From Cinnamomum chago (Eukaryota > Streptophyta > Magnoliopsida > Laurales > Lauraceae): DNA of 64,000 nucleotides. The stretch is taken from assembly GCA_038049695.1 (NCBI GenBank), contig CP142461.1, positions 36,226,501-36,290,500 on the forward strand, read 5' to 3'. A program made the position numbers and the translations under genes. Below, one piece after another: positions 28,967 through 51,010 of this stretch. The first letter of the stretch is position 1. Each line of letters begins with the position of its first letter. Under the pieces are notes generated by a model, which did no database searches, was not told the DNA's origin, and was given only the letters and a program-made list of their open reading frames with translations.

Positions 28967-29176
28967 TAAGGGCATGTTTGTGTAGCCCATTTCCATGGAA
29001 ATGAAGACAGTTTTCCGTGGAAATGGAACTTTTCATGTGTTTGGTACATGTTTTTTCCTAGGAATCACTTTATTGCTACCTCAACATTTTCCTTCCTCAC
29101 TATGGAAATAGACTTCCCATGGGGGGGGGGGGGGGGTATGGGAAGTTTATTTCATCAGAAAACTTGCCCCCCCCCC

Positions 29177-29184
29177 CTTTATAA
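29177..29184 (+). promoter_or_regulatory. TATA box near the left end of the Harbinger element
   Basis: TTTATAAA lies about 80 bp upstream of an ATG at 29259 and 200 bp inside the element, a plausible start for its plus-strand transcript. It is followed by pyrimidine-rich sequence typical of plant leaders. Confidence 0.35.
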
Positions 29185-29258
29185 ACCTCTTTTCCTATCC
29201 ATTTCCCATCCAAAACCTTAGCCCCCACTTCTACATTGCTGGAAAATCTCCTTCATCG

Positions 29259-29660
29259 ATGAGCTTCTTCTGGACTGCAGCAGCCATCGCCCCCTTGCAG
29301 GTAAATCCCCACTCTCTTATCTTCTCTCTTCTCTGCCAAGTTCTCTCTGCCCTGTGCTTGCAGTTCATCGTCCCATCATCCTCTTGTTTGTTCGAGTTGG
29401 AGAGCTCGCTGCGCCCTGAGCAAGCAGGGTCATCGCCTGCTCTAATCCTTGGACCCAAACGACCCTTCAACAACTGATCTACTCATCCGCAAGTTCGTGG
29501 CTTCCTCTTCCAAGTCACTCCTTCTCACTACTCTCTCCCATCTCCTCTCCAACAACAACAACAGTGATTGCTCCTCTTTTGCCCTTCCTGTAACTAACTA
29601 CTCTCTCCTACTTTTACCCCCACACAAACACATTGATACATACATACATACCCACTAAGA
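29259..29660 (+). pseudogene. Host-like leader sequence inside the Harbinger element
   Basis: GC-richer than the rest of the element. An ATG at 29259 opens MSFFWTAAAIAPLQ and meets a good donor, CAG|GTAAATCC, at about 29300; an acceptor TGCTTGCAG follows near 29363. Further on, at about 29449-29520, PNDPSTTDLLIRKFVASSSK and LLLTTLSHLLS read like the N-terminus of an organelle-targeted plant protein. PPR proteins came to mind, but no motif proves it. This does not look like Harbinger protein. It may be a captured host exon or simply an element leader. Confidence 0.35.
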
Positions 29661-30139
29661 CTTTCACCTACTTGCACACAAGGACAAATGGGTAGGAACT
29701 AGGAAGGCCCACCCACCACATATTTCACTCTGATTGGATGTTCTTAAGTTCAACGGTCCTGTTCTTCTAATCATGATGATTATTACATCTGCTATAATCC
29801 TTCCATTTTTTGCCTGTTTCAGATCTAAAGGGATTTGTACCCTCTATGACGATTGTGGGTTATTTACAAGATATATAGGGTTTGCTTTTGATAATTTCTT
29901 TTAATCTGATTTCTAGTTTTTAATTATATCAGGACTAGTTATTGTGACTAGTTATTCCTTGACTTTACTTTTATAATGCAGATAACAAAATTTTATACCT
30001 TAAAATGTAGGACTCAGGGCCGATTTGCCTGCTTGGTATTAAATCTCTATGCTAGTTCTTTGTCTCTGTGCTAGTTTCAACCCAATGTGGGTGGATTCTT
30101 CCTACTCCTATTTTTTGGCAAGTTAAGACCCTGAGGCAC

Positions 30140-30260
30140 ATGTACAGTATGTTGTTGCGTCAATTGCATCCATATTGGGACCATTGATCCAAAAAGTTGA
30201 TCTGGTGGGCCGCGCAGTCAATGCGGGTCCCCCCCAAAAATCCTTGTGGAAGATCCTAGC
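30140..30260. other. Non-coding spacer between Harbinger leader and ORF1
   Basis: The 29.66-31.2 kb part of the element holds no gene. The segment listed here has GGGACCATTGATCCAAAAAG and GGTGGGCC tracts of the kind scattered over this window, and may be a small older repeat. Confidence 0.3.
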
Positions 30261-31214
30261 CACCCAATTTTGCATATGCAAATAGGCAAGCAATAACAAA
30301 ATGACAGCAGGAGACTGGCCCTGGAGAAAATGTGATAGCAGATGCTGTGCATGTTCCCTTACTACATTTGATAGCAGATGCATAGATAATTGTTATAGTT
30401 TTAAATTGGTATATCTTGCTTATGTTTGGCTAGTATTGTATAGCTAGCTACATTTGATCTAAAACAATGGGCAGTTTTATTAGTCTTTCACTTATAAATT
30501 ATATGGTTATGTTATATGTGTAGGTCTATTACTTGCCACTAAGATAGAGATTTTGATGCAATGATATATTTCATTAGAAAGTTGTGGGGATGATTCATAA
30601 GTAAGTTTTCAAAATCCGTCCTATATCAAAGAAAATCCACCATACCTATCTATTTTTACACTTTATAGTGCCCTATCTCATAGATTAGTACTGTTTATTG
30701 CTCATCTCCTCCTGCAAAAATCCGGGCTTTCAGGCTCTGTTTGTCTCCTGAGTGTTGTATTGACTCAAGCAACTACAAGTCTCACTGAAAAGGCATCTGT
30801 TGAACTACTAAGCCTAATCTTGGGCTTGAACAGTTCCGGTGCTTCTGAGGTGCCAACACTAGGCCAAACACATCAGTGACTTGGGTCACTGTCTTTTGAG
30901 CAGTCCACATGCATGCTGAATCAAAGGATGATTTTAATTTTATGATGGGTTCCTAAGAAGCCCTGCCATCCCATTGTAATGTTAGATGACTTTTATTGTT
31001 CATTCAATATCAAGTATATGAATTATCATTCAGAGGATCATTGTTGTAGTGTTGTTTAATCTAATGGATTTATAATAACTGTTGCCATTTATTTAGCATC
31101 ATACCCATTTCTTAGTTGCTTCATGATGTTGTTGTAACCCATACCGGTGAAATACTAATTTTTCATATTTGACATAGTATATAAATATTCACATCTTTAC
31201 TAAAATTTGTAGGA

Positions 31215-32180
31215 ATGGGGTCGCAAAATACAAATGATAATTTCGCTCCCCTTCCAAAAAATTTGAAATGGATGCCAATGCAAGATGACACGCTCATCCA
31301 ACTTATGGTTGAGCAATGTAAGGAGGGGCGCGGCATAAAAGGAGGTTTCACCTGTGAAGGGTGGAATTTATTAACAAAAGAAATGAAGGCTGCTCATGGT
31401 GCCTTCTTTAGTAAGGATAAACTGAAAAACAGGTTTAAAACATTGAAGAAGACTTATGGGGATTTGAAAGCAATGCTAGACCTTAGTGGATTTGGATGGG
31501 ATGATACGAGAAAAATGGTGACTACTGAACCGGATGTTTGGAAAGAATATGTGGCGGTGAGTAAATTCATACGTCTATTTTTTTATAGGTCCTATTAATG
31601 TGGTAAATGAAAATTTGTTACAAGTATGAACTATTTTGATTCACTTGCAGGCACATCCTAAGGCAGCTCTTTATAAGAACAAGACCTTCCCAGACTGGGT
31701 TTCTCTGGCCATTATCTTTGGTGACAGCGTTGCAGATGGTAGAGATGGTTTTGCTAGCAATGATCCGGAACCTATAGAAACCAAGCTAAAGAAGAGACGC
31801 AAGCTGATGATATGGATAATGCGTTTGATGATAATGCATATGAGGATATTGACATGTCCATAGGCACCAATAGGAGGCAACGCCAGCTGAGTACTACACC
31901 GACTTCTCACCATTTAGCGAGAAACCGACCAAATATGGGTCAAGCTTTGATTGCTGCAGTGGAAACTATAGCATCTGCTATGTCTGATTATGCAAACAAA
32001 AGAGCTAAAGAGCGTCCAGACATGGACAAATGCATTGATTCTCTTCGTGCTCTTGGACTTCCAAATGGTATATATTTTAAAGCACTAAACGTAATAGAAA
32101 TTGAGAAAAAGGCTGAATTCTTTCTGGCGTTGCCTGCTGGTGATCGTAAACCATGGATACTAAGTCAACCTGGATTATAA
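31215..32180 (+). pseudogene. Harbinger ORF1: Myb/SANT-like DNA-binding protein (L10-interacting MYB type), frameshifted
   Basis: In PIF/Harbinger elements ORF1 binds the transposon ends and brings the transposase to the nucleus. Exon 1 is 31215-31556 (114 codons), donor GCG|GTGAGT; exon 2 starts at 31651 after CACTTGCAG, phase 0. The Myb_DNA-bind_3 (trihelix) fold covers about residues 18-110: KWMPMQDDTLIQLM, GGFTCEGWNLL, LKNRFKTLKKTYGDL, SGFGWD, PDVWKEYVAAHPKA. After ETKLKK the frame changes near 31750-31790; the proper continuation (EETQADDMDNAFDD) is in another frame and ends at 32180 with a helical C-terminal region (IAAVETIASAMSDYANKRA, then SLRALGLP). So there is one frameshift in an otherwise open gene. 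Homologous host genes exist, but the position inside matched ends makes a transposon origin clear. Confidence 0.8.
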
Positions 32181-32620
32181 TTCAACTTGGACTAGAGTGC
32201 TGATGGGAAAGGTGGCATTATGAAGATTTTGGAACGTGACAACTTTTTGGCCTTGTAATAAAAAAACCCTAGTTGTGAATACATGGCACTTTTGGAACCT
32301 AGAACTTTGGGGTACTACTATTTTGGGCACGTTTATTTCTTGTGTGCAACATGGTAGTAAACTATTGATATGCACTTAGAATATGGATGGCATACGATCA
32401 TCTAACCTTTTTGTCTCTTATTGAGAGAACCTTTCAACTATGGATATGCATGAACTTCACTTTTGCTATATATATTGTTCTATATGGTGGTTATGCTTCA
32501 TATGCTTGTTATGTTTTATATGGTTGATTTGTTTTATGTGGTTGATATGCACCAGATGATGACTATACAATTATATAGTACTTTGTTATTAATGTGCTGC
32601 AGATTATATTTTGTTACGAA

Positions 32621-33962
32621 ATGGATGAGGATATGGAGTTCCTTTTCTTTTGTGCCCAAACTGTGGCTCTTATTTGTGTTCTTGGGTACTATTATTCGTA
32701 TGGCCATAGAGAAAGAGTTCATAACTCTATCTTAACAGGCGATTCTTTTGTGGATGAATTATTGAATGGACATGAGCGTAATTGCTTTGATCTATTACGA
32801 GTGAGCAAGGGATGCTATGTTAATCTGTCAAATGAGTTGAGACAAAGAGGTCTACTATTCGACTCACGAAATGTTAGGGTTGAGGAGCAAGTTGCCATTT
32901 TTTTATTCACGATTGCTCACAATGAGCGTAATCGAGTGATGCAGAATCGATTCCAACACTCTGGTGAGACTATTAGTAGGTACTTCAATAAGGTACTGGG
33001 TGCGATTATGAGGCTTTGCCCTCATTATATTAAGCCCGTAGGAAGTGAGACTCCAACAGAAATTGCAACAAACCCAACCTTCAACCCTTACTTCAAGGTA
33101 ATCTAAATTTGATTTAAATTATGTCATTTTCTTACAATCGGTTTAATAATATTGTGTTTATCATTAGGATTGTGTTGGAGCAATTGACGGCACACACATA
33201 CCTGCATGGGTTTGTTCAGAAGATCAAGTGCGCTACCAAAACAGAAAGGGTTTCCTCTCACAAAATGTCATGGCTGTTATATCTTTTGATATGCAATTTC
33301 AATACGTATTTACTGGTTGGGAAGTGTCGGCGTCTGACTCTAGAATACTGCAAGATGCTTTGTGGAGACGACCATATAATAGGCTTCATGTACCAACGGG
33401 TAAATTCCAATTCAACCATTCTAGAACTATATGGATTATTTCATTGTTGCAAAATTTTATAAGTGATTATATCTTGAATGTTCTAATAGATTGAATCTAT
33501 TTCTTAGGAAAGTATTATTTGGTGGATCGGGGTAATGCGAACACCCGCGGATTTATTGCACCATATCGAGGAGTGCGCTATCATCTCAAAGAGTGGTCAA
33601 CCACACAAGCACCTCAAACACCCAATGAACTCTTTAATTTACGACATTCTAAATTGCGAAATGTAGTGGAGCGTACTTTTGCGGTATTAAAGCAATGATT
33701 TCCTATCCTACAAACAGCACCACGATATCCTCTCAAGACACAAGCGAAAATAGTAGTTGCTTGTTGTGTTATGCACAACTACATCAAACAATGGAATTAT
33801 ATTGATGAAATGGATGAAGAGCATGCACAAGAGATGGGTGTTGATGAAGACATGTGTGCTTAGGAGGGAGGGGAAGTTGGATTGGGTTCGACTAATGCGG
33901 ACAGTCGATTTGCATATGAGCTACGAGATGCAATTGCTCAACAAATGTGGGATGAGTATTAA
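32621..33962 (+). pseudogene. Harbinger transposase ORF2 (DDE_Tnp_4, ALP1-like), two in-frame stops
   Basis: This nuclease cuts and joins element ends at TTA/TAA targets. Exons are 32621-33097, 33168-33399 and 33508-33962, with GT-AG introns (AAG|GTAATC to ATTAG|GAT; ACGG|GTAAAT to CTTAG|GAA). The N-terminal helical region (GHERNCFDLLRV, then VEEQVAIFLF, then RFQHSGETISRYF) is typical of plant PIF transposases. The catalytic triad is visible: Asp in GAIDGTHIPA (33186-33188), Asp in YLVDRGNANTRGF (33525-33527) and Glu in NVVERTFAVL (33669-33671). TGA at 33696-33698 sits where the family has Arg (LKQ-R-FP), and a TAG lies at 33861-33863. Both stops come after the triad. Domesticated relatives are annotated ALP1 or HARBI1, but this copy lies in its own element. 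Confidence 0.85.
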
Positions 33963-34431
33963 TTTATTAGACGTTTATTTTTAATGTTAAGACCTTGTAT
34001 GGTTGTTGGTACTTCATAGAATGTGTTGCAGTAATGGTGTTGAGACTATTTACATACATTTGACTAATTTTCTAATCATATAATGCTATTTGTAACCTAA
34101 TATATTGATGGTGTTGACATGGAAGTCTATTTTTTTTATACAAGATGTATCCCCAGTTGATGAACATGGCTGAAAAGTTTGAAGATGTATCTATAGTTGT
34201 GATGGTGTTGATATGTGTTCATAGTTGATGAACAGAGCTGAAAAGGTTGAAGAAGTGTTTCTAGTTCAGATATACTATCTTGCATTTGAAAAATAGGGTC
34301 CTTATTGGTTGACTTGTGATTTCCCTCCACATGGGAAGCACAGTTTTTGAAGATACATGAACTTGAGATTGTATCTGATAAAGAGGGTCCTGGAAGTTAA
34401 GGACCTTATTTGTATCTTTATATTTTTTAAA

Positions 34432-34858
34432 GAGGGTCCTGGAAGCACAACATTTCTGTTTTATCTTTACATGGCTTTAATTTGGCTCTTGGGTCTTACG
34501 ATTTCAATTGTAGAAGAGACTTGTTATGGGATAGAGGCACTTGTGAAGGCCGATATGCTGATGAAAGGAAGGGTTTGCTCTCGTGCTGATTTTACTACTC
34601 CTAAGTGCTCCGGTCTGGGCTTTATTCTCTCTAAACACTGTTGAGGATAAGATAGAACTAGAATATCAGGTTGCACTCGGAATTGTGGTGGCTGTTGTTG
34701 TTTGTTTGATGAAGCTTTTTGCTTTTGTTGTGTACACAGTGCTTTATTATCAATGTATGAGCAATGTAGAGAGAGACGACTTGGAAGAGGGAGCAAGGCA
34801 TAAATTAGTTTCTTCTGATGAATCTGATCTCCATGTTATTGATTCACTTTCTTGAATC
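34432..34858 (+). pseudogene. Probable captured host fragment: C-terminal part of a multi-pass membrane protein
   Basis: Between the transposase gene and the right end. The first frame gives FLFYLYMALIWLLGLTISIV, then EETCYGIEALVKADMLMKGR. After a one-base shift near 34565 the next frame gives GFALVLILLLLSAPVWALFS, then YQVALGIVVAVVVCLMKLFA, VVYTVLYYQC, and a charged tail ending in a stop at 34856-34858. Three hydrophobic segments and the pattern LYLALxWLLGLTVSVVE, then YGLxALxKAxxLxKGR, recall a plant family of unknown-function membrane proteins (At5g61340/At4g19950-like, from memory). No Harbinger protein has this. It lacks introns and its own start, and the C-terminus appears whole, so it looks like a captured fragment, now frameshifted. 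Confidence 0.55.
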
Positions 34859-35979
34859 AAGTTGTGGGGATTAGTGTATTTGGGTATTTGTCCTTTTAGG
34901 CCTCTGTTTGTATTTGGTTGTTCATTAGACTTATAACACTAATATGATTGCAGAGTGTTGGCATCATGTCATGAGGTTGGAAGATAGAGGGGAATACATG
35001 CCATGACAAATCATATTATTAATTACTTTTATGCCCTAGGAATTTTCTTGTACAAGTGTGTCTTCAAGTTTTTAGAGAATAATACACAGTAAACAGAAGG
35101 GTTAATTTTTGGAAGGACAGATTTTTTTAATGAAATATGCATCAACAACAACAAAAAAAGCCAAATTGGAGTTTTTCAGTTGCTCAACTAATGCATTTGA
35201 AATTCTGAAATTTGGAGAAATCAATTGCCATTTCAACAATTTTATGGTAGCATAGCAGGTTCTGATGATCTTTTGGGATTCTCATTACATGGGATCTTTT
35301 GGGATTCTCATTACATGAGTGTCACAGTGCAATACCAAAAATTAGACACCCATATACAAAGAGTCTAATCCTTTTTTTTCTTTTTTTTTTTGGCAATTTT
35401 GTCAGTTAGATTTTAGTGGCAGACCCAGTTATCATCATCACATGTCCAACAAAGGTACAAATTAGACTCCCACCATAACCTGATTTCTAGTTTGTGCAAG
35501 TGGGTCCATGGCCTCTGTTTCACAAGACCTCTGATATTTGGGATTGAAGATGAAGTATTATTGACTTGGATCATGAGAGAGAAGTTCTTGTGTGTACATA
35601 CCCATTAATTCACATACTTTCATGGTCCCACATGGCCATTTATTTTGTCCTAAATTTTTTAGGATCCTTGATTTTATACATAGAAGTGTGAACAAATGAG
35701 TAAATAGAAAGTAAATTACAAATGATAATACCATTGTAGTTTTATTATTTTTCCGTAGAAAATTGTCGCACCAAACAATAAATTCTAGTTTTGCGTAAGG
35801 AATCCGCAGCCGCACCAAACAACATCAACACCAATTCATCAAGGAAAAACTTTTTGCACCAAACATAAAATTTTGACTTCCACGGAAAAACTCTTCCAAA
35901 GAATTTAAAACCCATAGATTTTGCTGACGTGGCAATTTCTAATTTCCATGGAAATTACATGTATACAAACGTGCCATAA

Positions 35980-39757: not shown

Positions 39758-40440
39758 TGTGTGGGGTCATTTTGTAATCACGGATTTATGTGGGGCCACT
39801 CCCCATTTTCAAGACTATCCCTAGTCTCGGTGTTGCCCGGCTCGGCAGAAGCGCCAGTACGGGGAAGCACGGAGCCCATCTCGGTGGCCACATCTACGGA
39901 TGCCCATCTCGGTCTCGGCCTTAGCTTGATCTCGACCTCCTATCATTCAGCCATAAATACAGCTATAAATGCGCTGACATGACGGTAAATAGTGAACTGA
40001 CAAATAGAGTGAGCGCCGAACCTAGATAAGTGGCACGCCTTATCTCAAGGTCTCGTCCATAGGCGTAGGGGGATGGTTCGATGGGACATTCCCTTTTTAC
40101 CTACCCCCACTCAGGAAAGAGAGTACGTGCTGATGAGACTCCCATCTCCCTCTGAGGGGCCCAGTCCGATGATGACTCTCACGTCTATATAATACATGGA
40201 GAAAAACCACACGAGGTACGCAACAAGCCTACTCCCTATACTTCTCCTTCCTTGCTTTCCCTTAGTTATCAAACTAACTCAGGCATCGGAGTGCCTTCGG
40301 TTGCCAACAGCCAGGGGATCTGACCTTTGCTTTTCCTTTCAGATTACCGGAGGCCGATCCTTTCCCATAATCATCCCAAGATCACCAAGTCGAGAGTTTA
40401 ATTCTCTTTTAACTAAGTCCGTAATTTTTAGGCACTTACA
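39758..40440 (+). repeat. 5' LTR of the first Tat element
   Basis: 683 bp, TGTGTGGGG...CTTACA. A TATA-like CTATATAATACATGG lies near 40185-40199, suggesting where the element's transcript started. Near-identical to 51011-51693. Confidence 0.95.
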
Positions 40441-40462
40441 GTTGGCGCCGTCTGTGGGGAAC
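40441..40462 (+). other. Primer binding site
   Basis: TTGGCGCCGTCTGTGGGG directly follows the 5' LTR. This TGGCGCCGTCTGTGGG form is shared by many Tat-group elements. I do not assign the tRNA. Confidence 0.75.
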
Positions 40463-42370
40463 ATGATCTTTACCAAAATCAAACCTACAAAAGCCATGCA
40501 TCCAAAAACCAGATACGGTGGCGAGGGATCGTCAAAGTCCCGAAGAGTGTCATCCTTTCCTCCGCCGGAACAACCACCACTGCCATCGTTTTCGCGACAA
40601 AAGCCGCAGCTTTTACCGCTCCAGTCATTACCTCCAACGGCGCCCACCGGCGCTCACGCTGCTCTTCTTCCCCCTCCGGGTCCAACGGAGGCTCCCCCCG
40701 TCCTGCAGGAGCTATCGGGGATTCCCCGCCAGAGAAAGTCCAGAGGAAGATCCGGTCCCATGTATGCAGAGGGTGTTGTCTAGTCGGACTCCTCATCCCG
40801 ACCTGTGACGGCACTCCCCCGGCGTGACGACCGTCATGAGGCTCCTCACCCCCTAGATGATCAGCCACCCAGGGGCCAACAGCAGAATGTCTCCTCGTCG
40901 GATCCTCGACGACGAGGCAAGACCCCTGTCGGGGTAAAATCCCATCACTCCCATCATCGCACTCACAATGACGATCAGTCCTTTCATCGAGCCCGTGGAG
41001 GAGGAGATGATCCCCTGCTTGAAGAGCTCGAGGCCCAGAATCGGTTCCTCCATGAAAAAGAAGAGTTGATTCCTCACCTCCAAGAGCAGCTTCAGGCAAA
41101 TGAAAGGAGGACTCATATTCCACCTCTCAGACGACAACAGAACTATCTGGACAGTCGAGACTTGAGGCAAGTCCTCAACGACAGAAGAGGCAATCGCTGT
41201 GAAGAAGAAGGCTCGAGCAGCAGCCACCTACCTAGCAACCTCGGGGGGTCGCGCCGCGAGCTAGAGTCCCCGAGGCCAGAGAACATCACGGGCCTGAGGG
41301 AACTGATTGACCACTACGTCAAGCAAGAGGTCCAAGCCCGAATGTCCGAGATCGGTTTCACCCGAGACCAAACAGAAGCCTGTGATGCAGAAGATCAGGG
41401 CATGTCCCCCTTCTCCCAGGAAATAAAGAACTTCTCTCTTCCCAAGAGATTCAGCGTTCCAAGGTTCGTCCTCTATGACGGGACCTCAGACCCAGAAGCG
41501 CACCTGCGGCATTTCACTCAGCGGATGTTGGTATAGGGGGACGTCGGCCACTTTAACTGTAGGGTCTTCTCCTCCAGTCTAGGCGACCTCCCACTCCAAT
41601 GGTTCTGCGTGCTCCCTTCTGGGTCGGTCTCAAGTCGGCGACAGCTCCGAGGCTCCTTCGTTGAGAAGTTCCAAGCGCATTGTGTCATCCCGAAGACAGG
41701 TGGCAACCTCATGGCAATCCGGATGAAAGACGATGAGAGCACCACTGCATTCGCTAGAAGATTCTGGACGATCTATAGCCAGATCACGGATACCAAAGAT
41801 GACGTCGCCATCATGTGCTTCCGGCAGGCCTTACTCCCAGGCAATGAGCTCCGCAAAGACCTGGTCCGGACCCACGTGACCACGATGAAGGCACTGATGG
41901 CTAAGGTGAATCAGTACATTGAGCAGGAAGAGGACGAAGCTCGAGGCAAGGAGCGGTTCGGCCTCCCGCAGAAGGGCCAAACCTCTAGAGGAGAAAGGAT
42001 GTTCCCCAAACAAAGGCCAGATAAGAAGAGGGCCACCACCAGCTCGGCGACCTTCTTAACATCCGTCTCGGGTAACAGCAAGAGACCGAAGTTCAGGCCT
42101 ACCAAGCCGGCCGGAGATCCCTACAGGGCCGTCAATGTTGTCTTCAAGGAGCCCATTTATAGACTCCTCGGCAAAATCAAAGCAGAACCCTACTTCTAGT
42201 GGCCGCAGCCGATGAGGGGCGACCCGTCCACCCGAGATCGGAGCAAAAGTTGTTCTTACCATAAACAACACGGGCACATGACTGAGGACTACATGGCCTT
42301 GAAGTCCCACCTCGAGAAGCTCGTCAGGGACGGGCACCTTCAGGAGTACATCAAGGATGGGGAGAGGGTC
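40463..42370 (+). pseudogene. gag region of the first Tat element (fossil)
   Basis: A long Pro/Ser/Arg-rich leader (about 40463-41400) is followed by a retrotransposon gag capsid domain (about 41400-41930: FSLPKRFSVPRF near the start, then MKDDESTTAFARRFW). After a basic segment there is a knuckle-like motif (CSYHKQHGH...LKSHLEKLV, about 42248-42330). Gag packages the RNA in virus-like particles. The region is broken. Confidence 0.75.
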
Positions 42371-42479
42371 AACCAAGCTTAGCAGCGCGCCCCACTCAGC
42401 GAGGATCAGGACAACGACGAGCCAGCGGGTGTCATCAAGCTCGGTCGGAGGCCAGGAGGGTTGCCCATGGCAAACAGGT

Positions 42480-45400
42480 GATGTCGGCCGAGCTTGAACC
42501 TGCACCAAAGAAAGCCAGAAAGGAAAAGCCCAAGATCTGGTTCTCGGACGAGGACCTAGGAGGGGTCCAGCTCCCCCACAATGACGCACTCACCCTCACC
42601 CTGCGGTTGAACAATTACACCGTGAAGCGCGTCCTCGTAGATCCAGGGAGCTCATCCGAGATCCTCTACTTCAGCTGTTTCAAGCAACTTGGCCTGACCG
42701 AGTCCGATCTGCAGGAAGCCGACGTCCCCTTAGTAGGCTTCAGCACCAAGCCAGTGTACCCCACGGGGAGGATCTCACTTGAAGTCCGGATAGGAGGCGC
42801 CACGAAGATGACCGACTTTATGGTAGTGGATGTGTCGTCCCCTTACAATGTAGTAATGGGGCGGAGTTGGCTGCATGCCATGGAGGCAGTACCTTCCACC
42901 TTTCATCAGAAGCTCAAGTTTCCCCTAGAGAAGGCCGGAGGGGTGATCGAGGTAATAACCGTGCGGGGAGATCAACAGATGGCTAGACAGTGCCTCGAGG
43001 CCATAGTGCCTGGCGAAACGGAGCCGCAGCGAGTGCATATGGCCGAACTCGAGGATGTCGGACGCTCAGCTGGCCAGAAGAGCATAGAGGAACTCACCGA
43101 GGTTAGGATCAATTCCGATGACCCCAAGCGGTATTTCCTGCTGGGAAGCCAGCTCCCCGACAACGAGAGATCCAAGCTGCTCGACTTCCTACTGCAGAAT
43201 AAAGACGTTTTCGCCTGGACTCCATATGAGATGCCTGGGGTCGACCCCGAAGTCATATGCCACAAGCTAAACGTGAACCCCAGACACAAGCCCATAGTGC
43301 GAAAAGCCCGCAGAACAGGAGTCCCGCAGATAGAAGTTGTCATCAAAGAAGTAGACAAGCTCCTCGAGGCCGGAGCAATCCGCAAAGTGCATTATCCGAA
43401 GCGGCTGGCCAACACTGTGGTGGTTAAGAAGAAAAGCGGCAAATGGAAGGTCTGCGTGGACTTCACTGATCTAAATAAAGCTTGCCCCAAGGACAGCTTC
43501 CCCTTCCCAAAAATCGACCAGATGATCGACGCCACCTCAGGACATGATAGAATGAGCTTCCTCGACACCTACTGAGGTTCCCACCAGATCCCCATACACG
43601 GGCTTGATGAGGAGAAAACCACATTCATATCGCCTCGAGGCATTTACTGTTATAAAGTGATGCCCTTTGGGTTAAAGAATGCCGGGGCGACATACCAGAG
43701 ACTGGTCATGAAGATGTTTCATGCCCAGCTCGGGAAGACAGTAGTGGTCTACATCGATGACATGGTGGTCAAGTCCAAGAAGTCGCAGGACCATTTGACA
43801 GACCTGAGCCAGACATTCGCCATCCTCAGAGAGTTCCAGTTTAAACTGAATGCCTCCAAATGTGCGTTTGGCGTCGGGTCGGGCAAGTTCTTAGGAAGCC
43901 TGGTGACCCGGAGAGGGATCGAGGCTAACCCAGAGTAGATTGCAGCTATCCGGGCGATTCAGAGCCCAACCTCGGCCAAGCAGGTCCAAAGGCTCATGGG
44001 GATGGCCGCTATGCTCAATCGCTTCATCAGCCGAGCTTCGAACAAATGTCGCCCCTTCTTCCAACTTCTGAAAAAGAGCTTCAAATTCCAGTGGACCCCT
44101 GAATGTGATCGAGCACTGGAGAAACTCAAGGAATACCTTTCCTCGCCACCACTGTTGTCCACTCCATCACAAGGCGACCTCCTTTATCTCTATCTAGCGG
44201 TCTCGGACCACACAGTGAGCTCGTGTTAGTCAGAGAAAATGGCAAGCAGTAGCAACCCATTTACTACACGAGAAAAATCCTGCTCAACGCCGAGACCAGG
44301 TACCTTCCACTCGAGAAACTTGCGTTGACACTCGTCAGTGCCTCTCGCAAACTCTCCCATTATTTCCAAACATATACAGTGGTGGTTGTTACAGAACATC
44401 CGCTCAAGTCCCTATTTCGAAAGGCAGACTTTTCCGGGAGAATCTCCAAGTGGGCCGTCGAACTGGGGCAATTCGATATCCAATATCAACCCAGGACGAC
44501 GATCAAAGCACAGATTCTGACAGACTTCATCGTCGAGTTCACTTCTCCTAGTTCGGCACCGACCTCGCTCGATACCGAACTGGGGGGCAGCAGGGACAAT
44601 GATATAGCCGAGACCGAGGAAGACCGATCTTGGAGACAATTCCTTGGGTCGGCTTGGAAGATCTTCGTCGACGGATCATCAACATCCAGAAGGGCTGGCG
44701 CTGGCATAGTCCTCCAGTCTCCAAAAGGCCTAGTCATTGAACAAGCCCTGACCCTTGACTTCAAAGCCTCCAATAATGAAGTAGAGTACGAGGCACTAAT
44801 TGCGGGTCTCGGTAGCGCAAAAATCCTGGGGGCACGTCGGCTAGTAGTCTTTAGCGACTCCTAGTTGGTGACGAACCAGCTAAGCGGAGACTATCAAGCC
44901 CGTGACGAAAGGATGGCAGCATACTTAGCCCATACAAAACAGCTCCTCTCCGAGTTTAAGAAAGCAGAAGTCAAGTAAATCGGCAAAGAGTCCAACTGCC
45001 ATGCAGATGCCCTCGCCAACTTAGCTTCTGTCGTGGAAGCAGGAAAAAGAAGGACAGTTGACGTGGAGACGTTGAAAAAATCGAGCATAGAGCTCCTCCC
45101 ACCTCGACAAGTCCTGTTCGTCGGTCTCGGTCCGAGCTGGATGGATCCAATCATAGCATTCCTAAAAGAAGATAAACTCCCTGAAGACAGGAATGAAGCC
45201 CACAAGGTCAGAATGAAAGCAGCTCATTTTTTGCTGTCCCCAGATGAGAAGCTCTACAGAAAGTCCTTCACGGGACCGTATCTCCAATGCGTTCACCCGA
45301 GCAAGGTAGAAGACTTCCTTTTTGAAATTCACGAGGGAATCTGCGGAAGCCACATCGAAGGAAGATCACTGGCATACAGAGCTATCGGTCAGGGCTATTG

Positions 45401-46376
45401 GTGGCCCTATATGCAGAAGGATGCCCAGCTCTACGCCAAAAAATGTGAAAAATGTCAGAAGTTCTCTCACTCTCTATACCAACCGGCGTAGGACTTGAGT
45501 CCTCTCTCCAGCCCATGGCCCTTCGCTCAATGGGGGCTAGACATCGTGGGACCTCTTCACCGAACTCCAGGAAACAAGAGGTGGCTGATTGTGGCCACTG
45601 ATTACTTCACCAAATGGATCGAGGCAGAAACCTTATCCTCCATCACCGAGCAAGATACAAAGAATTTTGTATGAAAGAACATTGTCACAAGGTTTGGGAT
45701 CCCCCGAGCTCTGGTCTCGGACAACGGAACCCAATTCGACTCAACCTTCTTTAAGAACTTTTGCTAGGAGCTCGGTATTAGGAACCTCTATGCAACCCCG
45801 GCCTACCCACAGAGCAACGGACAAGCAGAGATCTCAAATAAGGTGGTACTGGACGGACTCAAGAAGAGACTCGATAGAGCTAAAGGCAGATGGGTAGAAG
45901 AATTACCAAGTGTCCTTTGGGCATACAGGACCACCCCAAGAGGATCCACTTCGGCAACTCCTTTCTCCTTAGCCTACGGAATGGAGGCTGTAATCCCTCT
46001 TGAGGTTGGCCTTCCGACCTTGAGATCGGATCTTTTCAACCAGGGGCAGAACGAAGTAAATCTCGCCAAAGAACTTGACTTGGCCGAGGAGCGAAGGGAA
46101 GCGGTATCCGTGCGCCTGGCCTCCTACCAGCAGTAGCTATCCAAGGGATACAATCAGAAGGTCAAAGAAAGGAAGTTCTCAATTGGGGAACTGGTCTTAA
46201 AGAGAGCACTTCCAGCAAATAAAAATCCCAATGAAGGCAAGCTCGCACCAAACTGGCTCGGGCCTTTTAAGGTGGTCTCGGCGTCCGGAAGGTCGGCTTA
46301 TAGATTTGAGAGCATGGATGGCAAGGAATTGCCACGGCCATGGAATGTCGCGCACCTCAAGAAATACTACTTCTAA
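42480..46376 (+). pseudogene. pol region of the first Tat element: PR-RT-RH-IN (fossil)
   Basis: Aspartic protease around 42600-42900 (VLVDPGSSSEIL). Reverse transcriptase around 43290-43950 ([38 protein letters not shown]). RNase H around 44000-44520, and a second, archaeal-like RNase H around 44640-44870 (IFVDGSSTSRRAGAGIVL), a Tat hallmark. Integrase zinc finger around 45330-45470 (HxxxxxxH...CxxC), catalytic core around 45520-45960 (LDIVGPL, TDYFTKWIEAE) and C-terminal part to about 46376 (AHLKKYYF). Broken in several places. Same order as the second element near the window end, but diverged. Confidence 0.88.
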
Positions 46377-46439
46377 ATGTACTCAAATGATAAGTCAATA
46401 AAAGAGGGATCTTATGGAAGACATGAGCGTTGTATCTTT

Positions 46440-47440
46440 CAAGTTGTGAATCTAGGCTTTGGTCCTCGCACCAGCCTCCTTGAGTTCGGTCGTTGGACCA
46501 GCTCCCAAAGGCTTCGGTCCTGGCGCCAACCTCCTTGAGTTCGGTCGTTGGACCAGCTCCCAAAGGCTTCGGTCCTCGTGACAGCCTCCTTGAGTTCGGT
46601 CGTTGGACCAGCTCCTAAAAGGCTTCGGTCCTCGCACCAGCCTCCTTGAGTTCGGTCGTTGGACCAGCTCCTAAAGGCTTCGGTCCTCGCACCAGCCTCC
46701 TTGAGTTCGGTCGTTGGACCAGCTCCTAAAGGCTTCAGTCCTCGCACCATCCTCATTGAGTTCGGTCGTTGGACCAGCTCCTAAAAGGTTTCGGTCCTCG
46801 CACCAGTCTCCTTGAGTTCGGTCGTTGGACCAGCTCCTAAAGGCTTCTGTCCTCGCACCAGCCTCCTTGAGTTCGGTCGTTGGACCAGCTCCTAAAGGCT
46901 CCGGTCCTCGCACCAGCCTCCTTGAGTTCGGTCGTTGGACCAGCTCCCAAAGGCTTCGGTCCTGGCGCCAACCTCCTTGAGTTCGGTCGTTGGACCAGCT
47001 CCCAAAGGCTTCGGTCCTCGTGCCAGCCTCCTTGAGTTCGGTCGTTGGACCAGCTCCTAAAAGGCTTCGGTCCTCGCACCGGCCTCCTTGAGTTCGGTCG
47101 TTGGACCAGCTCCTAAAGGCTTCGGTCCTCGCACCAGCCTCATTGAGTTCAGTCGTTGGACCAGCTCCTAAAAGGCTTCGGTCCTCGCACCAGTCTCCTT
47201 GAGTTCAGTCGTTGGACCAACTCCTAAAGGCTTCGGTCCTCGCACCAGCCTCCTTGAGTTCGGTCGTTGGACCAGCTCCTAAAGGCTCCGGTCCTCGCAC
47301 CAGCCTCTTTGAGTTCGGTCGTTGGACCAGCTCCCAAGGCTCCGGTCCCAGACCCAGCCTCCTTGAGTTCGGTCATAGGACCGGCCCCCAAGGCTCCGAT
47401 CCCGAGACCAGCCTCCTCGGATTCGAACATTGGACCAACT
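46440..47440 (+). repeat. Minisatellite, 55-bp unit, about 18 copies, inside the Tat element
   Basis: The unit is CTTCGGTCCTCGCACCAGCC, then TCCTTGAGTTCGGTCG and TTGGACCAGCTCCTAAA, 55-56 bp. Variants recur in order: the GGCGCC-type variant near 46510 recurs near 46961, about 451 bp apart, and the AGTCTCC variant near 46806 recurs near 47191, about 385 bp apart, so blocks of seven to eight units were duplicated. The last three copies are the most diverged. The period is not a multiple of three, so the open frames through it carry no constant protein. Confidence 0.93.
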
Positions 47441-48050
47441 CCCTTGGGAAAGGAACGAAATCAGCCATCTTATTTCACTCTTAAGTCACGAAATTCGGCC
47501 TGCCTTTGAGCTTGGCCGAACCTCCCAAATTATTAAAGTCGATGGTACGACCCCAGCCCTCCAGCAATAAGGTCACACCCCAGGATGTGAGTCCAAGCTA
47601 ACTACAAGGTCTTTTAATAAGGCGGGCCCCTCGGGAACATGTTGTTAAAGCCCCGACCTTAGGACCAGATGTTCACCACTTGAAGGTTTGGAGAGTTGGC
47701 CAAAAGACGGGGAGCCTTGTCATGTCCCAATCTTACGAACCCACCGATCTCAGCCACTTAAAGATCTGGAGAATCGATTAGTGACAGGGCATCAATTTCG
47801 TTCAATATCTTTCTCTGGACTAGAAGGTCAAGTCCAGTTACTATGAGTTCACCGATCTCAGCCACTTGAAGTTTTGGAAAAATTGGTCACAACATGGGTC
47901 CTCAACTTTACTCAAAATTAGAAGAACATCCACACACCATTACCAGGAGAAAGAAGTGGAAAGACAATTGAGCAAGTGAAAGAAAATTGTTTTTCATTAA
48001 TAGGAGGAAACAATTACAAAATTATGTACACTCAGAGAAAAGAGAAAAAT
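47441..48050. other. Spacer between the minisatellite and the antisense gene region
   Basis: Non-coding part of the retroelement. It has a few phrases repeated at long spacing (CACTTGAAGGTTTGGAGAG, CACTTAAAGATCTGGAGAA, CACTTGAAGTTTTGGAAAA near 47677, 47755, 47866), hinting at a decayed repeat of roughly 80-110 bp. Confidence 0.5.
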
Positions 48051-48053
48051 ACA

Positions 48054-50377
48054 TCAAAGGAGAGAAAAAAATACAGACATATTATTTCCTACATTATTCG
48101 GGCGCCGCGGCTTTATTCTCTGGCTCTGGAGGGACGGATGGAGCGAGGTCGGAAGCGCCTGGAGTTTGGGGCGGGGAGCCATTGAGGAAGCATGGGCCTG
48201 GTCGCCCTCGGCGGGAGTCGGGGGCAGAGGAGGAGGGCCTGGAGCTTCAGGAGGGGCTTCCAGAGGGTTGGAGTCGGGCTCTGACTCTGGGCTAGGTATG
48301 ACGGACTGGAATTGGGGAAGGTTCGCAAATATGGGGTCATCCTCAGAGACCCCGTACTCACGAAGCGCTTCCCTGCATCCCATCTTGTACAAGACCGGGC
48401 TCAGATCCTTGATTTGAGCCACGTACTCCTCCAATGCCCAGTCCACTCCTTCCTGATAAGCCTTTGCGGCCTGGGCTCGCAGAGTGGACTCGGCGTCGGC
48501 CCGCTCCTTCCTAGAGGACTCGAGCTCGGCCTCTTTCCCAGCCAGTTCAGTTTCCTTCTTGGCAAGCTCGGTCTCTAGTTGATGCGCCCTCTTTGCCTTG
48601 TCCTCGGCTGCACCTTTTAGGTGCTTATTTTTGGCTCGTAATTTGATGATCTCGGCCTTCGCCGCTTGTTGTTCCGTTGCGAGCTCGGCGATCTTCTCCT
48701 CCGCCTTCTTTATTTCTCCCGCACTGGCCTCCAGGGCATCCCCCATCTTCTTCCTCTCGGCGTCTGTCTCAAGAACCCGTGCAGCTATCTTCTCCATCAT
48801 TTCCAATATTATTTGGAGCCTCTGTACATTCTGCAAAAAGAAAACGGTGTTGGGGGTCAGAGATGGCAACTATGGCATAAAACTTAAAAAGAAAACGGTG
48901 TTTGGAGCCTCTGTACACCCTCATCGTCGAGTAGATCAGGCTCATTTGCCCGGCTTTATTATGCTTCTCCATATCCAAAGGGAGAGCGCACGCCCGAGCA
49001 ACTGCCGTGATCGTCGTGGTAGAGGTCCCCATCCGGTCCTCCACACTCAGGGGTTCGCCGGAGTTGAGATTGAGGTTGGGCCTGAAAGGGGGTGGCTTGA
49101 CAGACCGGAGCCGCGGGACCACTTCAGAGGCATGCTCCTCCTCACCCCCCACGCGAGGCCTCTTCTCGGAAGGGGGCCTCTCACCCTCTTTCTCGGCCTC
49201 CACAACCCGCGGCCGGGTGTCCTTGGGCGGCGGGGTCTCCTTGGGCGGCTCTTCCGACCTCCTCCTCTTCTCCTACAGGGGGCCTCGCGCGCCTTTGTCT
49301 TTCGCGGAGGAGGAGGTCCCCGCTGTGCCCGAGGGACCGGAGGGGGTGCTTGCTGAGGAGCCCTGAGGGGCGCCAGGTCCGCCGTGCGCACGCTTCAGAG
49401 CGGGAGGAACTCGGTCCTTGAGGACCAAGGCTCCCAGGTTTTTTAGAAGGGAACGCGGCCCGTCCATTTCCTCTTCTGCTTGGTCTCGGGCGGAGGGGTT
49501 GTCTTCGGCTGAGACTGGACAAAGGGGCTCCGAGGCTTGACCGCCGGTTTCTGCAAGTGCAAGTACGATCTCCCCTATCGGCTCAAGGGGGATCTCGGCA
49601 GTCTTCCTGGTGTAAGACTGGTACCGCGGCTTGTACCTGAGCAATGAGAAGGCAGCCCGATCGTGGTGACCGTGGTAATGGTAGATCTTCTCGAGCCACG
49701 CGTCGTTCCTCTTCCAACGATCAAAGGTGGCGTCCTTCCTCCTTCGTTGAACGCCTGCACAAAAACAGTACATATCAGTTAGATGAATCAGCGGTAAAAC
49801 AACACAAATTAGCTCGGGTAAACGGGTATTTACTCGGAGGGGTCCCAGGTTTCCATGGAACCTGGATTCTCAGCTCCTCCTTGGTCTCGGCCGCCCCGAA
49901 CTCCTAGTTCCCCGAGACCAGCAGACGGTCCTCCCCGGCTTACTTGTTAGAATCCTCCAGGGCATTGATCAAAGGCCGGCGTCTCGCCTTCGCCCGAAGA
50001 TAGTACGAATCCTCGCCCCCCGCGGACTTACAGATGTCATAGACATCCTCTATGTCATGCACGCCGAGGTCGATGTCGAGGATTCGGTTCAACTCCGCCA
50101 TGCCCATGATTATTTTAAACCCATTTGGCATCAGTTGGAAAGGGCAGATTCGCCACGAACTGAGACAGGATCGGAGAAGCCGGTGGACAGGGAATCTAAC
50201 CCCGCCTTCAATCACAGACACTAGAGGGAAGGGCATCCATTTTTTGTATTGGGCGAGGCCGTCAAAGAGGCCTTGAAGGTCATTGGGCTTCACCAGAACG
50301 TCGTTTGGAATCTTGAACGCCGCCCTAAGTCCCTCCAAGGCTTGGGGGCCCTTAAACCAATGGCTGTAAATTCCCAT
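48054..50377 (-). CDS. Antisense gene region of the Tat element (Transposase_28-like and coiled-coil parts; fossil)
   Basis: Several open segments on the minus strand between the array and the 3' LTR. The first (about 50377-49940) contains VRFPVHRLLRSCLSSWRICP, then QLMPNGFKIIMGMAEL, resembling the Pfam family called putative gypsy-type transposon (Transposase_28). The middle part (about 49770-48900) is Pro/Arg/Gly-rich and charged. The last (about 48835-48054) is a strong coiled coil (ERKKMGDALEASAGEIKKAE, AELATEQQAAKAEIIKLRAK), a DLSPVLYKMGCREALREYGV stretch and a Pro-rich tail. Acceptor-like TTTTTGCAG precedes the coiled-coil part. Antisense genes between pol and the 3' LTR, some of them spliced, are known in Tat-group elements such as Grande. 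Function unknown; whether this copy is whole is not clear. Confidence 0.6.
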
Positions 50378-51010
50378 TTCCTAAAAGCTAAAAAGGGGGC
50401 AGAGAGCAAAGAAGAAGGAGCAAGACCTAGAAAAACCTAGGGCGGAAACCCTCTAGACGAAAAAGAGTCGGAAGGAGAGTAACGGAGAAGAAAACTCACA
50501 GAGAGAATGTGGAGGTTTGCAAAGAGTGAAAAGCGAAGAGTAAGAAGTCTCCGGGTTTGATGAGGTTCAGTTTTCTGCAGAGTGTCTTCTTCAACGGGGT
50601 CTCCTTCCAGGCGAAAGCAAAGATAAGAGGAGAAAGGAAGGAGGGCATCCCCATTTTATAGAGGGATGCCCCTCTTGAATGTCACGCGTACGAGACAGCA
50701 CTTCAGACTCTCCACACATCGCTTCGATCACAGTAAACAACCAGACAAAGGGCTACGCGTGGCACCACCGGTTTATCTCCCTCCATAATTCTGGTACGTT
50801 ATTTGTCACCTCGGGCATACGAAATGACGTCCACGTGCCCACCTTGGTGAAGCAATTATGATACCGTATTTATTGCCTAGGGCAAACAAAAAGGCATCAT
50901 GATGAGGATCACACGTCAGCAAGATACGATAAGACGGGGCCAGCACATCCTTTCAATCTTAGCTCCCGACCTCAGAGAGAATTCTATGAGGTCAAGAGCT
51001 AGGGGGCAAT
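50378..51010 (+). other. Leader of the antisense region and polypurine tract
   Basis: Non-coding DNA between the antisense start and the 3' LTR, presumably holding the promoter of the antisense gene; on the minus strand, CTCTATAAAATGGGG at about 50665-50651 is a good TATA box. AGAGCTAGGGGGCAA at 50995-51009 is the likely polypurine tract for plus-strand synthesis. Confidence 0.5.

Follow-up and report, generated by a model that had tools for sequence, protein, structure and literature searches.

The 64,000-nucleotide stretch of Cinnamomum chago DNA analysed here (contig CP142461.1, positions 36,226,501 to 36,290,500; hereafter the window) contains a 7,007-bp PIF/Harbinger element at window positions 28970-35976, bounded on both sides by a TAA target-site duplication (28967-28969 and 35977-35979, unstranded), much as an earlier note on this DNA had framed a 7-kb element by its ends and the duplication. 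The features described below lie on the plus strand. The left end (28970-29005) combines an imperfect terminal inverted repeat with an inner palindrome (ATTTCCATGGAAAT) and is followed by a native 5' leader (29006-29363) that is also present, partly diverged, in native copies of the family; the native 3' region and the right end occupy 35148-35976. The terminal inverted repeats are imperfect (GGCATGTTTGTGTA versus GGCACGTTTGTATA), and the inner palindrome measures 14 bp. With its 3-bp TWA-like duplication, inverted repeats, DDE_Tnp_4 transposase and Myb/SANT-like second open reading frame (ORF), the element displays all four hallmarks of PIF/Harbinger. As suggested by our searches of the window's own assembly (1.06 Gb in 14 contigs, loci being named by C number and Mb), the lineage of this element has probably exchanged stretches of its own sequence on repeated occasions, at a 5' site upstream of ORF1 and a 3' site downstream of ORF2, for DNA copied from unrelated loci elsewhere in the genome, and then multiplied with it.

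At the 5' site, exon 1 (to approximately 29589) and the start of intron 1 of a captured PPR gene occupy 29364-29779, with 89% identity to a donor at C8:16.32 Mb (E = 1.4e-136) whose second exon codes for a PPR protein (Pfam PPR_2, 2.4e-14). The rest of the captured intron 1 is found at 30059-30369 (88%), and between the two parts lies a later captured piece (29779-30049) matching C1:5170408-5170678 at 97.8%; the flanks of this 271-bp piece at C1:5.17 Mb are unrelated. Native element sequence resumes at 30378-31214 and holds a 326-bp stretch unmatched in the native copy on C3. The PPR piece starts upstream of the start codon in copies C7:6.33 and C9:52.78, and in three copies a 589-bp piece of the tandem locus C8:7.54 Mb is nested in it. 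Among the 41 matches (35 candidates) found with a leader probe, several copies cease to match at probe position 139-140 (window 29363). Thus, the host-like leader insert that the earlier note had placed at 29259-29660 is indeed host-derived in part, with its limits redrawn: the sequence is native up to 29363, and the PPR gene accounts for 29364-29779 and 30059-30369.

At the 3' site, a filler (34393-34450), the first 36 bp of which are common to copy C7:6.33 Mb, precedes the 3' end captured from a membrane-protein gene without introns (34451-35151), comprising the C-terminal coding part, the stop codon and the 3' flank. Its donor at C8:65.21 Mb (95% identity, E = 1.5e-189) is an intronless ORF of 320 codons, in whose protein a Pfam search found no domain. 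Given the E-values of the two donor matches, the host origin of both inserts is far beyond chance. The window's membrane piece is without 70 bp and 11 bp of the donor, the 11-bp deletion shifting the frame. A probe of this segment found 15 places (all 15 candidates scored), namely 13 element copies, the source gene (C8:65.2118 Mb) and a neighbour of that gene matching at 80%. The membrane-protein-like segment was previously delimited as 34432-34858; its host derivation stands, and its limits are now 34451-35151. With source genes for both segments in the same genome and matches not limited to repeats, the gene capture proposed in the earlier note is supported.

Further captures are layered at the 3' site in sister copies. 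The 3' end of a gene that we take to be SNARE-like (SFT1/Bet1) is nested in the membrane piece, the 3' end of an RNA-dependent RNA polymerase (RdRP) gene is nested in the SNARE-like piece, and repeat-derived DNA (X), with at least 51 genome matches (the best 40 of 222 candidates scored), is nested in the RdRP piece. Pfam and PDB searches did not confirm the SNARE-like label: Pfam returned Spectrin and others below threshold and PDB a weak match to SNAP29 (0.13). The last-exon region of this gene has 27 further genome matches at 76-84%, as might result from independent uptake by a different repeat, and the RdRP donor lies among 8 gene matches clustered at C3:24.06-24.65 Mb. Copy C7:6.33 differs in carrying a PaO-family gene's 3' end, with its donor at C10:60.15 Mb; the 36-bp filler shared with the window and the other membrane copies is likely the scar of an earlier capture, and on the strength of this scar the PaO-family piece would be the first layer. 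Besides the five identified genes, the captures include four further pieces (C1:5.17, C8:7.54, C3:17.29 and the repeat-derived DNA) in which no gene was identified.

Painting of 15 copies against the donors, carried out on the plus strand, revealed how these layers are distributed. The order native-membrane-native occurs in the window, C6:61.2 and C9:52.8; native-membrane-SNARE-like-membrane-native in C10:69.3, C4:10.5, C1:101.1, C4:79.3 and C9:66.7; and native-membrane-SNARE-like-RdRP-X-RdRP-SNARE-like-membrane-native in C2:108.95, C1:84.72 and C5:3.60, the left native part falling outside the stretch taken for C2:108.95. Copy C6:77.45 reads native-membrane-SNARE-like-RdRP-C3:17 DNA-native. 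Of the SNARE-like and membrane layers nothing but scars is left in two copies of the size of miniature inverted-repeat transposable elements, one of 1,153 bp (C9:1.36, within C9:1355900-1357900) and one of 1,167 bp (C3:98.07, within C3:98067200-98069450), which thus spread the scars of two captured genes.

In the native copies C3:134.32 Mb (compared end to end) and C11:54.78 (5' side), positions 29363 and 30378 are connected by approximately 700 bp of different sequence, and the counterpart of the window's membrane gene at the 3' site of C3:134.32 is a stretch of approximately 285 bp. Native copies hold other DNA at both sites, and therefore the native DNA was replaced, not merely interrupted, the loss amounting to approximately 510 bp at the 5' site and 285 bp at the 3' site. 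Both captured pieces are missing from native copies, as the presence/absence comparison proposed in the earlier note showed: at both sites in C3:134.32, at the 5' site in C11:54.78, and in five diverged copies (C8:27.98, C5:67.79, C7:39.86, C5:16.79 and C2:62.02) labelled native by the absence of matches to captured pieces. The view that the segments are ordinary parts of the Harbinger family or shared repeats draws on the truly native leader up to 29363; against the absence of the PPR and membrane pieces from native copies, and the full-length genes that match them, it retains virtually no probability and is refuted for the two main segments.

A tree of 20 copies over window 32950-34140 (transposase region; C7:6.33 and C8:27.98 partly covered) agrees with the layers. 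The five capture states need 4 changes on it, the minimum, a value reached in 0 of 200 shuffles; copy C1:103.26 was scored in the SNARE-like state by its SNARE-like match, despite having no membrane-gene match. The RdRP trio received support of 99/95, and the 7 native copies fall on one side of a 95/94 branch. The order of captures is carried by the nesting more than by the tree, since branches within the capture clade are mostly unresolved.

The introns kept in the captured DNA show that copying took place at the DNA level. Capture of spliced transcripts by reverse transcription could at first sight appeal to the C8:7.54 piece, which is without 588 bp of its donor as if an intron had been lost; this jump has no GT-AG limits, and the PPR, SNARE-like and RdRP pieces retain intron DNA, so that we reject this very improbable route. 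Gap repair with template switching at the two sites is the most likely mechanism. A break or excision gap within the element would be repaired from a sister copy, and the repair strand would, where a few bases match, jump across to some unrelated locus, copy 0.3-3 kb and return; once foreign DNA occupied a site, later jumps could land in the same site again. The nested order would then run from native DNA through the PaO-family, membrane, SNARE-like and RdRP pieces to the repeat-derived DNA, with the window copy halted at the membrane-gene layer. Eleven junctions were compared side by side; several share 3-6 bases (e.g., CAAAAC where native DNA passes into PPR, TAG where C3:17 DNA passes into native) and others have short fillers repeating nearby sequence. 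Replacement, nesting, and shared bases or fillers at junctions agree with template switching during gap repair. For PIF elements, gap repair has prior support in the accessible parts of two reports (PMC2213677, PMC6327408), and template switching with a median microhomology of 2 bp is described in the portion available for animal Pack-TIRs (PMC8277862).

Host DNA could alternatively become interior when neighbouring elements or ends transpose jointly with the DNA between them, a Pack-TYPE style of capture whose model is named in the accessible text of a review (PMC13317346). We consider this unlikely as the source of the pieces: the model alone gives neither pieces nested in pieces nor loss of the native interior at a fixed place, and comparison of the whole element with five further donor loci (C1:5.17, the PPR locus, the membrane locus, L037x and L038x) revealed no family end. 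One donor does favour it, and this is the first of several points that weigh against repeated replacement by gap repair: a derivative of this Harbinger family, approximately 480 bp long, is situated some 2 kb upstream from the segment copied out of the SNARE-like gene. Furthermore, the microhomology was judged by eye at the 11 junctions without a random control and is missing from some of them, no repair intermediate was seen, and the forks inside the 13-copy capture clade are mostly open. Because the donor identity is only 88-91%, the true PPR donor may be a paralogue. A genome search with the joined flanks found no empty site, its 4 matches being the window's own 2 flanks and 2 short pieces at 81-83%.

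The coding capacity of the element lies between the two sites. ORF1 (31215-32180), a Myb/SANT-like frame (Pfam Myb_DNA-bind_3, 7.4e-24), is shifted in the window copy, where it is shorter by one base than in seven other copies. ORF2 (32621-33962), with three exons by splice-site reading, is assigned to Pfam DDE_Tnp_4 through two exon pieces, one at 2.3e-6, above the Pfam cut-off, and one at 1.2e-4, below it; it has premature stops at 33696 and 33861 in the window copy, which is broken in both ORFs. Over 32951-33962 of ORF2, premature stops are absent from 7 of the 13 capture-bearing copies and from 1 of the 7 native ones. The ratio of nonsynonymous to synonymous substitution rates (dN/dS) in ORF2 is mostly well below 1 among copies other than the window: 0.24-0.43 between C6:77 and six other copies (window excluded), and 0.39 when pooled over 28 non-independent pairs from 8 copies. 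The window versus C6:61 gives 1.25. Judged from sequence, the stop-free ORF2 and the low dN/dS are consistent with elements that multiplied while bearing captured DNA; a helper copy may also have supplied the transposase. Host coding fragments lie between the terminal inverted repeats as in Pack-TYPE elements, which are non-autonomous and have no transposase; ORF2 is present here and, in the part examined, uninterrupted by premature stops in 7 of the 13 copies, so that the capture-bearing elements are not Pack-TYPE. Against their donors, the pieces gave dN/dS of 0.77-2.07 for PPR (5 copies), 0.29-0.74 for membrane (4 copies) and 0.21-0.43 for RdRP (4 copies), being undefined for SNARE-like in 4 of 5; low values of this kind also reflect evolution along the branch of the donor itself and are no demonstration of function in the element.

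The sense orientation of the five identified gene pieces is no more than suggestive. At the 5' site the single gene, PPR, is in sense (1/1), with the start codon in the C9:52 and C7:6 copies; at the 3' site all four (PaO-family, membrane, SNARE-like and RdRP) are in sense, each with its stop codon in at least some copies. It is possible, if doubtful, that a selection filter acted on random captures, the survivors being those that spare transposase expression, with gene starts kept 5' and gene ends 3'. Only five genes are identified, the one-sided chance that all are sense is 1/32, and orientation was painted on the plus strand, with four pieces having no identified gene; such a filter would in any case be compatible with gap repair, not exclusive of it. 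Rather improbably, the lineage might renew its outer non-coding modules by repeatedly taking host gene starts 5' and gene ends 3', in sense, at the same two docking sites, each burst bearing new host regulatory ends. As pure speculation, small RNAs from the RDR2-like RdRP 3' end in the latest layer could dampen host silencing.

A 351-bp ORF2 probe found at least 41 genome matches (the best 40 of 100 candidates scored). The right end (window 35681-35976) had 2,163 first-look candidate places, the best 40 scored showing 87-100% identity, and this abundance likely reflects a large family of short derivatives. Exact 3-bp duplications flank 7 of the 10 copies with both ends seen, one being TAC; the sides differ in the other three (C1:101, C4:79 and C3:98). 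Two copies stand head to head within 17 kb at C9:66649905-66666945, their ORF2 being 99.6% alike. Elsewhere in the window, 40001-51000 has a guanine-cytosine content of 0.49-0.61, compared with approximately 0.33-0.42 in its surroundings.

The copies form a dated stack of native, one, two, and three or more layers, with each source locus still present. Built on an element with a kept transposase frame, the stack offers a stepwise test of the long-debated question of how transposons with terminal inverted repeats acquire host DNA, and prompts one to ask whether the gene ends lie in sense by chance, through a filter or because of a function. The earlier note's suggestion that gene capture is seldom reported for Harbinger was overstated, as the accessible portions of reports on grapevine (PMC2528002), maize and rice (PMC8903248) and Caenorhabditis elegans (PMC2572040) make clear. 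A grapevine study of 2008 had already reported capture by PIF elements that keep ORF1 and the transposase: Pifvine-3, like the present element, has host exons and introns that recur in several copies. Pifvine-3 carries its host DNA in the 5' region, whereas here such DNA is found at both ends, is layered at the 3' site and comes with source loci and a tree that follows the captures; nesting is not mentioned in the available text on Pifvine-3. Pack-PIF elements, described in maize and rice, likewise place Harbinger-PIF ends around host coding fragments, but as Pack-TYPE elements they are non-autonomous and lack the transposase, unlike the present copies with ORF1 and ORF2. Turmoil-1 of C. elegans is a Harbinger-kind element with two captured coding pieces; these lie in long inverted repeats, in an animal, and are not layered. 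Pack-MULEs and animal Pack-TIRs share host DNA, breakpoint microhomology and proposed gap filling with our element, but, as far as the accessible text extends (PMC8277862), belong to other superfamilies or are mostly single-copy animal cases. Nested serial capture in PIF/Harbinger was not found in the literature searched, subscription journals lying largely outside its coverage. Hence, capture by a transposase-bearing element is a known phenomenon, and it is the layered record of captures that has seldom been seen so clearly.

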